From Bacillota bacterium (GTDB lineage: Bacteria; Bacillota; Ch66; Ch109), in the NCBI GenBank assembly GCA_013178275.1, contig JABLWZ010000012.1, forward strand, positions 124,001-188,000: 64,000 nucleotides of DNA, written 5' to 3'. Positions 55,936 to 62,767 of the stretch are shown here, one piece after another (within the stretch, counting starts at the first letter, position 1; each line of letters starts with the position of its first letter). The notes beneath the pieces are model-generated. The model was not told the DNA's origin and made no database searches. It saw nothing but the letters and a program-made list of their open reading frames with translations. A program made the position numbers and the translations under genes.

Positions 55936-57117
55936 TTACTTCGCCGCCGCTTCCTTCACCCGGGTCCCCTCGGCCAGGTTCTGGCTGCCGTCGGTTATCA
56001 CCTTGTCCCCCGCCTGCAGGCCCCCGGTTATCTCCACCGTTTCGGTGTTGCTCACCCCGAGCTGGACCGGCAGGTGCCGGACCTTCCCGTCGACCACCGC
56101 CATGACCTCCTTCTGGCCCTCTCCGACCGTGCGGACCGACTCCCGGGGGACCACCAGCACGTTGTCCCGGGTGGCGGTCTCGATGGCCACCCGCACCTCG
56201 TAGCCCGGTTTCAGGACCGAGGCGCTGTCCAGCCGAATGATCACCGGCACCCGGCGCTGCACCACGCCCAGCGCCGAGGTTTTCTCCTCCGCCTGCGGGT
56301 AGATCTTCTCGACCACCCCGGTGATTTTCGACTGTCCCAGGACCGGGGCGGTTATCACCACCCGCTGCCCCAGGCGCACCTCACCCAGGTCGTCGCTCAG
56401 GATGTCCGCCTTGACCTCCATCTGGTCAGGCGCTGCTACCGACACCACCAGGACTCCCGGCGTCAGGACCTGCCCCTTCTTGACCGGGAGGCTCATCACC
56501 GCCCCCGGGAGCGGGCTCCTGACCACCAGCTGCTGTTCCTTGGCGGACATTGAATCCAGCGACTCGGCCAGGCTGGCCTCCTGCTGCCGGGCCCCGTTCA
56601 GCCGCGCGGTCAGGTCCAGGACGCTCTGCTGTCCGGTGTCGACCTGGAGCTTGGCCCGGTCGTAGTCCGCGGGGGACGCCACCCCCGCCTGGTACAGCTT
56701 CTCCACCCGGGCCAGGTTGTCCTCGGCATCCTTGAGCTGTATCTTCGCGGTCTCCAGGGCGGTCCGGGCGGAGGCTGCCGCAGCGGAGGCCTGGGACAGC
56801 TGGGACCGGGTTTCACTGGACTGGATGGACAGGTCGAGGTTCTCCAGGACCACCAGGGTCTGGTCCTGCGCCACCACCTGCCCGCTCTCCACCGGCAGTT
56901 CCACTACCCGGGCGCTCTGGGTGGCGTAGAAATTGAAGTCCTCCACCGGCTGCACGTAGCCCGTGTCGCTCACGGTCCGTACGACTCCCCCGGCCTTCAC
57001 CTCGGTCAGTGCCGCCTCGGTCCCTCCCCCGAGGGCGAGCGCCCCCACGGTTGTCACCACCACCAGCGTTACCCCGATCCACATATAGGTCTTCCGTTTC
57101 AGCTTCGGCAACTTCAT
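55936..57117 (-). CDS. MacA/HlyD-type adaptor protein of a second ABC exporter
   Basis: 393 aa with an N-terminal membrane helix (about 12-30), lipoyl halves around a coiled coil (about 85-180), beta-barrel with VVSVAAPDQMEVKADILSDDLGEV, and a membrane-proximal domain ending EITGGLQAGDKVITDGS. The plan matches the adaptor at 19983-21266 although the sequences are diverged. It follows the permease by 43 bp, so the gene order is the reverse of the first system (ATPase, permease, adaptor). ATG start. Confidence 0.92.
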   Translation of the reverse strand: MKLPKLKRKTYMWIGVTLVVVTTVGALALGGGTEAALTEVKAGGVVRTVSDTGYVQPVEDFNFYATQSARVVELPVESGQVVAQDQTLVVLENLDLSIQSSETRSQLSQASAAAASARTALETAKIQLKDAEDNLARVEKLYQAGVASPADYDRAKLQVDTGQQSVLDLTARLNGARQQEASLAESLDSMSAKEQQLVVRSPLPGAVMSLPVKKGQVLTPGVLVVSVAAPDQMEVKADILSDDLGEVRLGQRVVITAPVLGQSKITGVVEKIYPQAEEKTSALGVVQRRVPVIIRLDSASVLKPGYEVRVAIETATRDNVLVVPRESVRTVGEGQKEVMAVVDGKVRHLPVQLGVSNTETVEITGGLQAGDKVITDGSQNLAEGTRVKEAAAK

Positions 57118-57160
57118 ACCCCAGCCCTCCCGACTGCCGCGTTTTACGCGTCGTTTTTGT

Positions 57161-59545
57161 CTACTCCCGATCCTTCAATACTTCAACCAGGTCAAGGTGT
57201 TTGACCCCCCGCACCGCCAGCCGGTGCGCGACCATGATAAACATCACCCCGCCCAGGGCGGAAAGCACGTAGGTCAATGGATATACGATGACCGGCAGGG
57301 TAAACAGGTCGCTGCTGGCCATCTGCATGAACCCCTGCGACATCAACCTCCCGAAGGGCAGCCCCAGCGCCACCCCCAGCAGTGACTGCAGCAGGGTCTC
57401 CTTCAGCATCAGGCGGGACACCTCCCCGGGGGTGAAACCCAGCACCCGGAGGGAGGTCAGCTCCCGCTTCCGCTCCGCGAAGCCGATGACCGACGAGTTA
57501 TAGATGATAGCAAAACCCAGCACCACCGAGAAAAACACCATTATCCCTATGGAGACCACCATGCTCTCCAGGTTTTTGTAAAAGTTGTCCAGTTCCTTCT
57601 GGCGGCTCATCACCGAAGATACCCCGTTCATCTTGTTCAGTTCCGCCTCGAAGGCCTTGGCGTAAGCGGGATCGATCTTCAGCACCGCCCCGGAGACCAG
57701 GTTCCTCTCCAGCAGCAGCCGGTTGAGCTGCTCCAGGTCCAGGTACGAACCGCCCCCGATAAGCTGCCGGTTGACGCCCACCACCTTTACCCAGGCCGTA
57801 TGCTTTGGCCCTATCCCCAGCAGGGTCTCGACCTCCACCCGATCCCCGGCCTCGATCCCCAGCTTCTTCGCGGTCAGGCTGCTGATCAGGATACCGTTCT
57901 CGGGCAGTGAGACGGGCTGCCCGGTATCGCTTACCAGGTCCTTCAGCTTCTCATCGGGCACGAGGCCCAACAGCAGTTCGTCGCGGCTCTGCCCCATAAA
58001 GTGCACCTTGGCCGGGACCTCCAGGATCGGTTCGGTCCTGGTCACCCCCTCGATGCGGGACAGGCTCAGCAGCTCGGACGAGTCCACCGGCGTATTGAAC
58101 CTCACCAGGTAGTCGTACTTCTGCTCCTTGAAATAGTGCTGCGTCAGCATGTAATCGATAGAGTCGTTGCTGAACAGGGACATCACCAGCATCCCCACCG
58201 CGAATATGACCCCTACCATCACCACCGCGAACCGCCCCCGGTTGCGGGAGACCGTCCGCACCCCCATCTTCCATGTGGGGTCGAGCCTCGCCCACAGCCA
58301 GATCCACCGTTCCGCCAGGGTCCGCCCTCCCCGCTTGGGAGGCTCGGGCCGCATCGAGTCCGCGGGATTGATCCGGGTCACCCGGCGCGAGGATGTGATC
58401 CCCGCCAGTCCGCCCACCCCCAGGGTCAGCAGAAACCCGTACCCGATCGCCTCGACATTCACCCCCCCGATCGCCTGCGGCAGGTTGAAGTACAGCGAGT
58501 AGAGGTCGGAGAAGACCGAGGCCAGCATGACCCCAAGCCCGGTGCCGATCGCCGCTCCGGTGACAGACATCGCCAGAGCGTACTCGGTATAGTGCAGCAT
58601 TATCTGGCGGTTGTTGTATCCCAGTGCCTTCATCACCCCGATGGGCAGGCGCTGGGTCTTGATGATCCTCCCCACGATCACCAGTTGGATCAGGGCGGCC
58701 ATACCCAGGAAGATTACCGGCATAACCGTGGCTGTGTTCTTCAGCTGCGACAGCTCGCCATCCAGCACCATGTGGCTGGTCTGCTGCTTGCGGGGGTAAT
58801 CGGCCAGCAGCCCGTAGGGCTCCAGGATATACTTGATCTCTTTCGCGACCCGCTCCTCGTCCGCCCCCGGCGCCAGCTTCACGACCACCTGGTTGATCTG
58901 GCCGTTCAGGTTCATCATCTGCTGCGCCTGCTTGTACGGTATCATCGCGATGCCGAAGGTCTCGGGCTCCGGCAGCAAGCTCGACGCGTCCTTCATCGCG
59001 TAGATGAACTCGGGGCTGGTAGCCGTGCCCACCACTGTGAGCGGCGTCTGCTTGCCCTCCACCACCACGTTTATCTCATCGCCGAACCGGAGGTGGTTGG
59101 CCGTGACGAACTTCCCGTCCATCAGCACCTCGGTGGTCCCGCCCGGAGGATACTCCTCGAACATCCTCCCGCTCTGCAGCATCAGGCGGTTAACTTCATT
59201 CTCCATCGGCAGCGGGAAGCTGATCAGCCGGACCGTCCCCCGCTGGTCGTTCTCCTTGAGCAGCGGCACGTCTTTCTGGAGCCTCCCGGTCGCCCGCTCC
59301 ACCCCTGGCACCGCCTCGATCCGGTGGGTCACCTGCTGCGGCGCCCGGACCACGTGGAAGAAGTAGTCGGCGAAGTTCGTGTCCTGGTAGAACCTCTCCC
59401 GCGAGGTGTGGAGGTTGTTGTAGGAGGTGCTCATCGAGATGTACACCGTCACCCCGAGCGCCACCACCGCCACCACCGCGAAGAACTGGCCCTTGGTGCT
59501 CCATATGGTGCGCAGAAGCTTCTTGGTCAGAGGTCCCATCACCAT
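57161..59545 (-). CDS. Large FtsX-type ABC transporter permease
   Basis: 794 aa with two FtsX-like modules. One helix near residues 18-38, a large external domain (about 45-255), three helices (about 265-385), a linker RGGRTLAERWIWLWAR, another helix (about 440-460), a second external domain, and three C-terminal helices with GFAERKRELTSLRVLGFTPGEVSRLML. Such large permeases serve lipoprotein, peptide or antibiotic efflux. It overlaps the ATPase gene by 7 bp. ATG start in the alternative [11 protein letters not shown] or two codons later. Confidence 0.92.
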   Translation of the reverse strand: MVMGPLTKKLLRTIWSTKGQFFAVVAVVALGVTVYISMSTSYNNLHTSRERFYQDTNFADYFFHVVRAPQQVTHRIEAVPGVERATGRLQKDVPLLKENDQRGTVRLISFPLPMENEVNRLMLQSGRMFEEYPPGGTTEVLMDGKFVTANHLRFGDEINVVVEGKQTPLTVVGTATSPEFIYAMKDASSLLPEPETFGIAMIPYKQAQQMMNLNGQINQVVVKLAPGADEERVAKEIKYILEPYGLLADYPRKQQTSHMVLDGELSQLKNTATVMPVIFLGMAALIQLVIVGRIIKTQRLPIGVMKALGYNNRQIMLHYTEYALAMSVTGAAIGTGLGVMLASVFSDLYSLYFNLPQAIGGVNVEAIGYGFLLTLGVGGLAGITSSRRVTRINPADSMRPEPPKRGGRTLAERWIWLWARLDPTWKMGVRTVSRNRGRFAVVMVGVIFAVGMLVMSLFSNDSIDYMLTQHYFKEQKYDYLVRFNTPVDSSELLSLSRIEGVTRTEPILEVPAKVHFMGQSRDELLLGLVPDEKLKDLVSDTGQPVSLPENGILISSLTAKKLGIEAGDRVEVETLLGIGPKHTAWVKVVGVNRQLIGGGSYLDLEQLNRLLLERNLVSGAVLKIDPAYAKAFEAELNKMNGVSSVMSRQKELDNFYKNLESMVVSIGIMVFFSVVLGFAIIYNSSVIGFAERKRELTSLRVLGFTPGEVSRLMLKETLLQSLLGVALGLPFGRLMSQGFMQMASSDLFTLPVIVYPLTYVLSALGGVMFIMVAHRLAVRGVKHLDLVEVLKDRE

Positions 59546-60249
59546 TCAATCCTTTCCGGCGGAAGCGGCGACGGGTTATAGGAGACCTCCACCACCCGGC
59601 CGCTGCTCATGCGGATAACCCTCCGCGCCATGGCGCTGATCGCGGTGTTGTGGGTGACTATCACCACTGTGCTGCCGCGCTCCTGGTTGATGCGCGACAG
59701 GAGGCTCAGTATCATCTGCCCGGTCTGAAAATCCAGCGCCCCGGTGGGCTCGTCGCACAGCAGCAGCCGCGGGTTCTTGGCCGCCGCCCGGGCTATCGCC
59801 ACCCTCTGCTGCTCGCCCCCGGAGAGCTGCGAAGGGAAGTGGTCCATCCGTTCCCCCAGGCCCACATCTGACATGATCTGCTCCACCGGGATCGGGCGCT
59901 CCACCAGGTTGGCGGCCAGCTCCACGTTCTCCCGCGCGGTCAGGTCGGAGATCAGGTTGTAAAACTGGAACACGAATCCGATCTCGTTGCGGCGAAAATC
60001 CGTCAGGTCCTCGTCGTCCGCGTGGCTCAGGTTCTTGCCCCCGAAAAAAACATCCCCCGAGGAAGGCAGGTCCAGCCCCCCGATGATGTTCAGCAGGGTG
60101 CTCTTCCCCGAACCGCTGGGCCCGAGGATCACCACCAGCTCCCCCTTCAGGAGGTCCAGGCAGGTATCCTTCAAGGCCTCCACCCTGATCTCGCCCATCA
60201 CGAAGGTCCGGCTCACGTTTTCCATCCGCATCAGTACTTCTTCCGCCAT
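59539..60249 (-). CDS. ABC transporter ATPase of the second exporter
   Basis: 236 aa. Walker [10 protein letters not shown] near residue 41, Q-loop [12 protein letters not shown], signature [15 protein letters not shown], Walker [14 protein letters not shown]-loop VTHNTAIS. It belongs to the LolD/MacB group. ATG start after GAGGGAGTT, 42 bp after the GbsR-like regulator. The operon order is regulator, ATPase, permease, adaptor. Confidence 0.95.
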
Positions 60250-60291
60250 AACTCCCTCACCCTAAACGGTTTATTCCGATAATTATATGAT

Positions 60292-60765
60292 TCAAGCTCG
60301 GTCGCTGAATTCTCCTCTTTTCCACCGCTCGTAGTACTCGTCGATATCGGACATGTACCAGATACAAAAGTCCAGGTAGTCCTTCATCCCCTCCAGGTTC
60401 TCCCTGGCGCTCGGGTTATCGGCCGGAATGATGCTGAGTCCGTGCAGGATGATCTGGTTCCACTCCTCAATGACCTTCATCTTGTTTTCTATCGCCCTGG
60501 TCCAGGATCTGATGCTGGCGGTATAGTAGTCCTTGCGCTGGCCGGGCCGGCTCACCTTCTCAATCAGCGCCATGAGCAGACCTTGGCGGACGGTCAGGGA
60601 GGCCGTGGCCTTGCTGAACAGCAGGTCGGACGATATCTCGTCCAGGGTTTTCGGCTCGCCCGTCAGCATCAGGTAACCGAAGACCCGCCCCAGGGTCTTG
60701 GTCCCCCCCGCCTCCTCCATCAGGAGCCCGAACCGCTCGATAAACCGTATCTCATCAGGGACCAT
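60292..60765 (-). CDS. GbsR/MarR-family transcriptional regulator
   Basis: 157 aa. Winged-helix region about 25-95 (GRVFGYLMLTGEPKTLDEISSDLLFSKATASLTVRQGLLMALIEKVSRPGQRKDYY), typical of GbsR-like proteins, with a helical dimerisation part after it. Heads the second ABC export operon and probably controls it in response to a small molecule. ATG start behind GGGGGG. Confidence 0.87.
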   Translation of the reverse strand: MVPDEIRFIERFGLLMEEAGGTKTLGRVFGYLMLTGEPKTLDEISSDLLFSKATASLTVRQGLLMALIEKVSRPGQRKDYYTASIRSWTRAIENKMKVIEEWNQIILHGLSIIPADNPSARENLEGMKDYLDFCIWYMSDIDEYYERWKRGEFSDRA

Positions 60766-60927: not shown

Positions 60928-60956
60928 TTGACACAGCTGCACTATTGTACTAATAT
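60928..60956 (+). promoter_or_regulatory. Promoter of the GntR/SPFH operon
   Basis: TTGACA (60928-60933), 17-bp spacer and TAATAT (60951-60956). The spacer and -10 lie inside the 36-bp palindrome, so a bound regulator would block RNA polymerase. Confidence 0.7.
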
Positions 60957-60973
60957 ATTAGTACAATAGTGCA
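60938..60973. promoter_or_regulatory. 36-bp perfect palindrome, likely operator of the GntR/YtrA regulator
   Basis: The sequence around TAATATATTA reads identically on both strands over 36 bp, with arms TGCACTATTGTACTAATA and its complement and no central gap. It covers the spacer half and -10 of the promoter and ends 13 bp before the regulator start codon. YtrA-type regulators usually bind palindromic sites of this sort in their own promoters. Confidence 0.8.
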
Positions 60974-60986
60974 AGGGGTGTTGCAC

Positions 60987-61355
60987 ATGCCATTCAGTAT
61001 TAACCCAGAAAGCCGCATCCCGATTTATGTGCAGCTCAAAGAAGCGATCAAGTTCGCCATAGCCACCGGTGAACTTCCTCCCGCTTCACAGCTGCCCACC
61101 GTTCGTCAACTCGCCGTCGAGCTTAAGATCAACGCCAATACTGTTGCCCGGGTCTATTTAGAACTTGAGAGCGAGGGGGTATTATCAACCAGACCGGGGA
61201 AAGGGACCTTTGTGAGGGAGCACCCGAAGATTAATAACACGTATAAGGAAGAAAGCCTGGGTGAACTTCTGGACGACGTGATTATCAAGGCGTCCTCACT
61301 GGGTTTTTCCCCTGCGGAATTGCTGAAGGCGTTTGAAAAAAAACTGAAGGGGTGA
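60987..61355 (+). CDS. GntR-family regulator, YtrA subfamily
   Basis: About 122 aa. GntR winged helix: RIPIYVQLKEAIKFAIATGEL, then LPTVRQLAVELKINANTVARVYLELESEGVLSTRPGKGTFV, followed by a short helical tail (about 45 residues), the layout of the YtrA subfamily. These usually repress their own operon with membrane transport or surface genes. ATG at 60987 is chosen because GGGGTG is 6 bases upstream; the frame open at 60969 would start inside the operator. The stop overlaps the start region of the next gene. Confidence 0.9.
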   Translation: MPFSINPESRIPIYVQLKEAIKFAIATGELPPASQLPTVRQLAVELKINANTVARVYLELESEGVLSTRPGKGTFVREHPKINNTYKEESLGELLDDVIIKASSLGFSPAELLKAFEKKLKG

Positions 61356-61360
61356 AAAAA

Positions 61361-62275
61361 ATGGTTAAAAGCAGTGCGGGATTTGCTAGAATTCAGGTGC
61401 CGTCACGGAGAGTCCACCCTATCTCAGCAGCCTTATTTGCAGTAGTGTTTATACCCGGCTTGATTTGGGGCATTTACCAGTATCAGCCGTTCATAGCTGT
61501 CGCATCTCTTTTAATCGCCACCCTGGCCTCGTCCGCGGTGAAGGTCTCCCAACAATGGGAAAAGGCCGTGGTCCTGCGCCTCGGTAAATTTAAAAAGCTG
61601 TCCGGGCCTGGACCGTTTCTAATCATCCCGGTGGTAGACACCGTATCGAGCTGGATCGACCAGAGAATCATCGCAACCCCCTTCAACGCTGAACAGACCC
61701 TGACCAAAGACACCGTTCCAGTCGATGTCGACGCGGTGCTTTTCTGGATGGTCTGGGACGCGGAAAAGGCCGCCCTGGAGGTTGAAAGCTACAAGGACGC
61801 GGTCGCCTGGGCATCACAAACCGCCCTTCGGGATATCATCGGCAAGACCCAGCTTTCCGAACTGCTTGCCGGGCGGGAACACATCGATGATGAACTGAGA
61901 AGGATAATCGACCTCCGTACCGTACCATGGGGCATTTCCGTGCAGTCCGTGGAAATCCGCGACGTAAGCATCCCCAAAAGCCTCCAGGACGCGATGTCCC
62001 GGGAAGCCCAGGCCGAAAGGGAGCGTAAGGCCAGGGTTATTTTAGGGACAGCTGAAACCGAGATATCGGCCAAATTCGCCGAAGCGGCCAAGGACTACGA
62101 AAATAACCCGGTGGCCCTGCACCTTAGAGCAATGAACATGCTTTACGAAGGGCTTAAAGAAAAAGGAGCTCTGGTAGTGGTTCCCAGCACCGCCGTCGAG
62201 ACCATGGGCCTGGGTACCATAACCGGCCTTACATCCTTGACCAGGTATCCTGTTGCTGAAAAAAATAAGGACTAA
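61361..62275 (+). CDS. SPFH-domain (slipin/stomatin-like) protein
   Basis: About 304 aa. Two hydrophobic segments (about 20-38 and 42-58), then the SPFH domain (about 60-250) with VVLRLGKFKKLSGPGPFLIIPVVD, DVDAVLFWMVWDAEKAAL, LRDIIGKTQLSELLAGRE and WGISVQSVEIRDVSIPKSLQDAMSREAQAERERKA. These build membrane microdomain scaffolds. Co-transcribed with the YtrA-like regulator (6 bp apart) and a small membrane protein. It usually partners NfeD proteins, but no NfeD gene is seen here. ATG at 61361 has AAGGGGTG in place; a GTG three codons earlier overlaps the regulator stop. Confidence 0.92.
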   Translation: MVKSSAGFARIQVPSRRVHPISAALFAVVFIPGLIWGIYQYQPFIAVASLLIATLASSAVKVSQQWEKAVVLRLGKFKKLSGPGPFLIIPVVDTVSSWIDQRIIATPFNAEQTLTKDTVPVDVDAVLFWMVWDAEKAALEVESYKDAVAWASQTALRDIIGKTQLSELLAGREHIDDELRRIIDLRTVPWGISVQSVEIRDVSIPKSLQDAMSREAQAERERKARVILGTAETEISAKFAEAAKDYENNPVALHLRAMNMLYEGLKEKGALVVVPSTAVETMGLGTITGLTSLTRYPVAEKNKD

Positions 62276-62350
62276 AAATAAAAAACATAATCAAACTGTA
62301 GACCTGACCTCAACAGTAGAAATAGAGGGTGGTAAAAGGAGAGAAACTTT

Positions 62351-62767
62351 ATGAAGCGAGGGATTCTCGGTCTTATTTCGCTCACAGCCTACGGCGCCCT
62401 GCTTTACCTGGGCTCGCTGTATCAGGAGCACCTGAAGCATATCGCCTCAACCACATATGACCCCTACCCCAGTCTATTGTTCACGAGCCTGTTCCCCATC
62501 GTTTTCGGGATGCTTTTGGCCCTGCCCCATCTGTACCGGACCGTCAGGGGCGAAGGCCGGCTGGGTGTCGATATCTATCGGCTGGTTTTAATGGGCATCC
62601 CCACCCTTTACGTCGCGGCGGTTCCCCTCCTGGTTTTCTCGCCAGTAGGGAGATACCTGGTGACCAGCTATATTTTTTTCCGGTACAATCTACTGACTTT
62701 TGCCGCTGGCGCGGCCTTCGGCTATATTCTGGTCACGTCGTTTAAGAAGGGTGGTCAGCACCCTTAA
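62351..62767 (+). CDS. Membrane protein of unknown function, third gene of the SPFH operon
   Basis: 138 aa with four predicted helices (about 5-22, 42-62, 78-100, 107-130) separated by short loops. No family recognised. The ATG start follows AAGGAGAG, 75 bp after the SPFH gene. It could be the membrane partner of the SPFH protein in place of NfeD, which is only a guess from position. Confidence 0.75.
   Translation: MKRGILGLISLTAYGALLYLGSLYQEHLKHIASTTYDPYPSLLFTSLFPIVFGMLLALPHLYRTVRGEGRLGVDIYRLVLMGIPTLYVAAVPLLVFSPVGRYLVTSYIFFRYNLLTFAAGAAFGYILVTSFKKGGQHP

Follow-up and report, generated by a model that had tools for sequence, protein, structure and literature searches.

In the archaeon Sulfolobus acidocaldarius the regulator YtrASa, a member of the YtrA subfamily encoded by the first gene of an operon together with a membrane protein, represses its own operon by binding to a long inverted repeat that lies at the start. 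Secondary half-sites next to it, each a direct repeat of its primary counterpart, are needed if binding is to be tight (PMC6746942). The locus described here resembles this system in gene order, in the layout of its operator and in the very small size of the regulon, but it is bacterial, its membrane protein is a slipin while that of YtrASa belongs to no known family, and the core of its operator measures 22 bp instead of 14 bp. Bacterial operators of the subfamily are, like the present one, long palindromes in which GT and AC stand well away from the centre and which have extra, weaker boxes; they differ from it by being usually single sites and by standing mostly before ABC-transporter operons (PMC4494728). 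Weaker boxes at distances of 7-12 nt accompany many GntR-family sites (Suvorova et al. 2015, PMC4494728), and the direct-repeat sites cited in the same work concern some FadR, HutC and MocR members, not YtrA; its text contains no match for slipin, stomatin or SPFH.

Stomatin-like proteins, or slipins, occur in all domains of life, and their role in bacteria is poorly known. The relatives with solved structures, stomatin, PH1511 and QmcA, share the SPFH domain with the present protein, but the paper on this family (PMC2258279) discusses neither a regulator nor an operon. No paper linking a slipin to a GntR regulator was found in the open-licence literature.

The window analysed here is a stretch of 64,000 nucleotides from a Bacillota bacterium (contig JABLWZ010000012.1, positions 124,001 to 188,000), and all coordinates refer to its first letter (Table 1). 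The original prediction placed a perfect, gapless 36-bp palindrome, TGCACTATTGTACTAATATATTAGTACAATAGTGCA, over the spacer and the -10 box of a promoter in which TTGACA and TAATAT are 17 bp apart, and both statements are confirmed: the two 18-nt arms are 100% complementary with 0 nt between them, and the promoter agrees with the consensus at 10 of 12 positions. No other gapless palindrome in the window is as long, the runner-up having arms of 10 nt, and in ten shuffles of the whole window the longest arms were 7-9 nt. Transcription is predicted to start near position 60963, and an AAGGGG ribosome site overlaps the last base of the palindrome. The same intergenic region is shared by a divergent exporter operon on the minus strand (55936-60765), with genes for a CudC-like regulator, an ABC ATPase, an FtsX-type permease and an HlyD-type protein.

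Table 1. Positions of the promoter, the putative operator and the genes of the operon in the window.
Feature	Position	Strand	Remark
-35 box TTGACA	60928..60933	+	layout TTGACA/TTTACA-N17-TAATAT also in L176, L052
Left outer half-site CTGCACTA, 6/8 to TTGTACTA	60937..60944	-	not kept in closest relatives L052, L176
Perfect gapless 36-bp palindrome, putative operator	60938..60973	no strand	arm comparison and shuffles
Core operator TTGTACTA-ATATAT-TAGTACAA	60945..60966	no strand	exact in 3/300 phylum genomes; unique in own genome
-10 box TAATAT, within operator	60951..60956	+	
Right outer half-site TAGTGCAA, 7/8 to TAGTACAA	60967..60974	+	repeats inner one directly, 8 bp
YtrA-type GntR regulator, 122 aa	60987..61355	+	ATG 60987 preferred over GTG 60969
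Slipin (stomatin-like SPFH protein), 304 aa	61361..62275	+	Band_7; two N-terminal hydrophobic segments
138-aa protein, four hydrophobic segments	62351..62767	+	possible operon passenger, not conserved member

The regulator has a GntR winged helix-turn-helix (Pfam PF00392, E=1.7e-16) at its N terminus and no further domain, and its length falls within the 120-130 aa, with a C-terminal domain of about 50 aa, that characterize the YtrA subfamily. Its best relatives among PDB sequences are 3by6, 3neu and 4ham, YtrA-sized chains which the profile spans over their full length, in support of the YtrA-type assignment made earlier. Because the closest orthologues, L052 (70%) and L176 (74%), begin at the corresponding MPF- methionine, the ATG is the best start of the gene, the longer GTG alternative falling within the palindrome; from this follows a distance of 13 bp between the end of the palindrome and the start codon. 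An ABC-transporter operon partner, which is typical of the subfamily but neither universal nor defining, is absent, and a slipin stands in its stead.

The slipin assignment rests on a Band_7 domain (Pfam, E=1.6e-32) that is closest to stomatin (top PDB match, E=4.8e-52) and lies behind an N-terminal membrane segment (hydrophobic residues 21-62). When a profile built from seven slipins of this phylum was used in a survey, 80 slipin loci were obtained, and in 68 of them a YtrA-type GntR gene lies directly upstream on the same strand. According to the record titles, the gntR-slipin loci belong to Bacillota, Chloroflexota, Acidobacteriota, Planctomycetota and Eremiobacterota, mostly as metagenome assemblies, and the pair of YtrA-type GntR regulator and slipin is thus widespread, in at least five bacterial phyla. 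NfeD does not stand beside the slipin of the window, where the next gene has no Pfam match, nor is it among the 25 families listed for 47 genes downstream of slipins. In several Bacillota, genes for membrane electron transfer adjoin the pair: a NapC/NirT-type multiheme cytochrome in L023, L026 and L028, and NrfD in L069 and L027, accompanied by FeS and molybdopterin subunits or without them. No known defence system was matched by PADLOC.

Within the palindrome, the elements follow each other in the order CTGCACTA, TTGTACTA, ATATAT, TAGTACAA, TAGTGCAA. The core consists of two inverted octamers 6 bp apart, TTGTACTA-N6-TAGTACAA, with the -10 box in its middle and displaying the GT and AC far from the centre that mark YtrA-subfamily operators, and each core arm is flanked on its outside by a further octamer that repeats its neighbour directly at 8 bp. 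Four half-sites can accordingly be counted, which supports the earlier remark that the palindrome is longer than one dimer needs. Among relatives with inverted operators, an octamer 8-9 bp outside the core agrees with the half-site in at least 5 of 8 positions in 60% of cases on the left, where the score is possibly inflated by overlap with AT-rich promoter sequence, and in 35% on the right, against a background of 6%, so that added half-sites are the best reading of the extra length. The closest relatives have the core in an unchanged promoter register, exactly in L176 and with one mismatch in L052, but their outer arms differ, and the outermost 7 bp on each side are not preserved. The expectation that the palindrome would precede orthologous operons thus holds for the core, exact or nearly so, and fails for the outer arms. 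Judged from these comparisons, the perfection over the full 36 bp is particular to this genome, and the conserved object is the 22-bp core.

Among 300 evenly sampled genomes of the phylum, three have an exact match to the core TTGTACTA-N6-TAGTACAA; in all three its centre is ATATAT and it heads an operon that contains the gntR-slipin pair. The core directly precedes the pair in the genome of the window and in L176. In the third genome, G330 (L184:1-8001), the exact operator and gntR are 3.5 kb apart, the operator lying upstream; CoA-activase-like genes lie in the interval and the pair stands at the end of the operon, whose regulator and slipin are 53% and 67% identical. The core is unique in its own genome, and this uniqueness, together with its position before gntR-slipin operons, points to a single-target autorepressor. 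Three further candidate sites in the same genome, with 3 mismatches each, were rejected (4 against 16 per strand in the reversed control).

The regions upstream of 74 gntR-slipin pairs contain the half-site core TACAAT 173 times in forward orientation, to be compared with 6.3 in shuffles. The 24 loci with a YtrA regulator that does not adjoin a slipin contain 4 such cores, and no array is seen at slipin genes that lack GntR. When the 74 operators were classified by scores chosen in this analysis (threshold 12/16 for inverted sites and 20/24 for direct repeats), 20 were inverted, 49 consisted of a chain of four direct half-sites, one was ambiguous and four were unassigned. Shuffled sequences reached the direct-repeat threshold in 0 of 750 cases and the inverted threshold in 14 of 750, so that the two weakest inverted calls, L075 and L111, are uncertain. 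The inverted sites, among them those of Bacillota and Acidobacteriota, use the same half-site in both orientations. Three Bacillota loci (L027, L028, L069) have the pair and no recognizable operator in the region examined.

What the sequence itself shows is how the operator is built, that it is conserved along with the gene pair and that it is unique in the genome; from this we infer a scheme for binding, repression, stoichiometry and signal. We consider it highly probable that the palindrome serves the gntR-slipin operon as an operator for autoregulation, where repression would come about by blocking of the -10 box and the outer half-sites would recruit subunits. A dimer of the encoded YtrA-type repressor would occupy TTGTACTA-N6-TAGTACAA, where it would cover both the -10 box and the predicted start and keep RNA polymerase off, so that the regulator would repress its own operon. 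The outer half-sites, as direct repeats of their neighbours at 8 bp, would bring in more subunits and strengthen repression, while release by a signal would induce regulator and slipin together. A dedicated repressor with a single target, kept across phyla, would also be a handle, in that the signal which releases it should reveal under which condition the slipin is needed.

A different arrangement is seen in one Chloroflexota clade, where three to six half-sites, placed head to tail at intervals of 8-9 bp and lacking an inverted partner, stand before the gene of the orthologous regulator. The spacings in these arrays are 9-8-9, 8-8-8 or 9-8-8, with up to about six units, and as the conserved sequence is confined to the direct units and TTGACA, the idea of hidden inverted half-sites was rejected. 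In 44 of 50 direct-repeat loci the first TACAAT unit lies 16-17 bp after a TTGACA-like box, and this unit therefore doubles as -10 box. Each of 11 Chloroflexota genomes has a single three-unit array, which lies before the gntR-slipin operon, and the reversed pattern gave 0 matches; an order-level sample of 151 genomes contained 14 with an array, which in 12 of them directly precedes an orthologous GntR gene, and two of these GntR genes are followed by an ABC transporter and not by a slipin. In the Chloroflexota loci L157 and L158 the orthologue with the same direct-repeat array is followed, in place of a slipin, by a small membrane protein together with an ABC transporter.

The tree of the regulators gathers every array-type row in a single branch (support 96/95), which also holds one truncated row of the inverted type and one row without assignment; the Chloroflexota neighbours of this branch have inverted sites, several of them N7. 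One change from inverted to direct sites fits the tree, whose alignment is short (136 columns) and in which a strict count gives three to four label changes, so that a single origin is a reading and not a proof. Regulators of the array clade are set apart, within and behind the recognition helix, by F (96%) between two invariant Asn, where inverted types have A or P, and by R (96%) after a conserved AY, followed by DE (90/94%); their C-terminal domain is retained. A tentative proposal, to our judgement possible rather than probable, is that, among the orthologous YtrA-type repressors that control this one conserved operon, the symmetry of the gntR-slipin operator changed once, from inverted half-sites to head-to-tail arrays in a Chloroflexota clade, that the array type would coat DNA as asymmetric oligomers instead of binding as symmetric dimers, and that the operator of the window, with both inverted and direct relations, would be an intermediate. 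Such a row of head-to-tail repeats is unusual for this repressor family. The natural comparison may be BldC, a winged helix-turn-helix protein that binds 9-bp direct repeats head to tail, with a ratio of 4:1 on four repeats (PMC5859096), and that resembles the Chloroflexota arrays in the period and number of its repeats. The likeness would be one of mechanism, not of membership, since BldC is MerR-like, not GntR, with no homology claimed, and the operator of the window is itself inverted. If the switch is real, the evolution of operator symmetry could be tested with natural proteins and sites.

The position of the first array unit behind its TTGACA-like box is also what one would expect if the repeats were elements for RNA polymerase, i.e., tandem -10 boxes with multiple starts, rather than half-sites for a repressor. 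We find this very unlikely, as the units past the start are as well conserved as the first, arrays are missing from slipin genes that lack gntR, and one and the same half-site serves in both orientations in the inverted sites outside the array clade. It is extremely unlikely that the palindrome works by folding on itself, as the cruciform or the RNA hairpin near the start that had been suggested. Its perfect self-complementarity over 36 bp would favour such folding, and the full palindrome taken as RNA reaches -23.3 kcal/mol (z=-4.9). With a start near 60963, however, the left arm would be left out and only the right arm is expected in the transcript, the 5' end of which folds no better than shuffles (z=0.29), and this speaks against the hairpin; orthologous operators are imperfect, N7-spaced or direct repeats that cannot fold back, and this speaks against the cruciform; a conservation limited to the 22-bp core speaks against both.

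The original prediction also drew in the third gene, as part of a possible membrane-stress module; a further reading would make this a module of three genes defined by the 138-aa protein. The membrane character of the operon's products is evident from their sequences, the gene lies on the same strand 75 bp behind the stop codon of the SPFH gene with no convincing terminator or promoter seen in the gap, and in Chloroflexota another membrane protein, SdpI/DUF1648, often comes after the slipin (29 of 47 sampled downstream genes). Yet the gene trio is not conserved and the proposed co-occurrence did not materialize: a homologue of the 138-aa protein is found at none of the 80 slipin loci and beside none (0/74) of the other GntR-slipin pairs, while homologues (L003-L021) in ten other genomes of the phylum lie away from slipins. 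A module defined by this protein is hence very unlikely, and the protein, which is no conserved partner, may be a passenger in the operon. It has no Pfam or NCBIfam match, and assignment to a known family was rejected, the weak matches being scattered. Its homologues (L004, L005, L013-L021 and others) make up an unnamed group of solitary four-helix membrane proteins with the motif G-x-W-K-x-D-W and no Pfam family, of which nine copies occur in the single genome G081.
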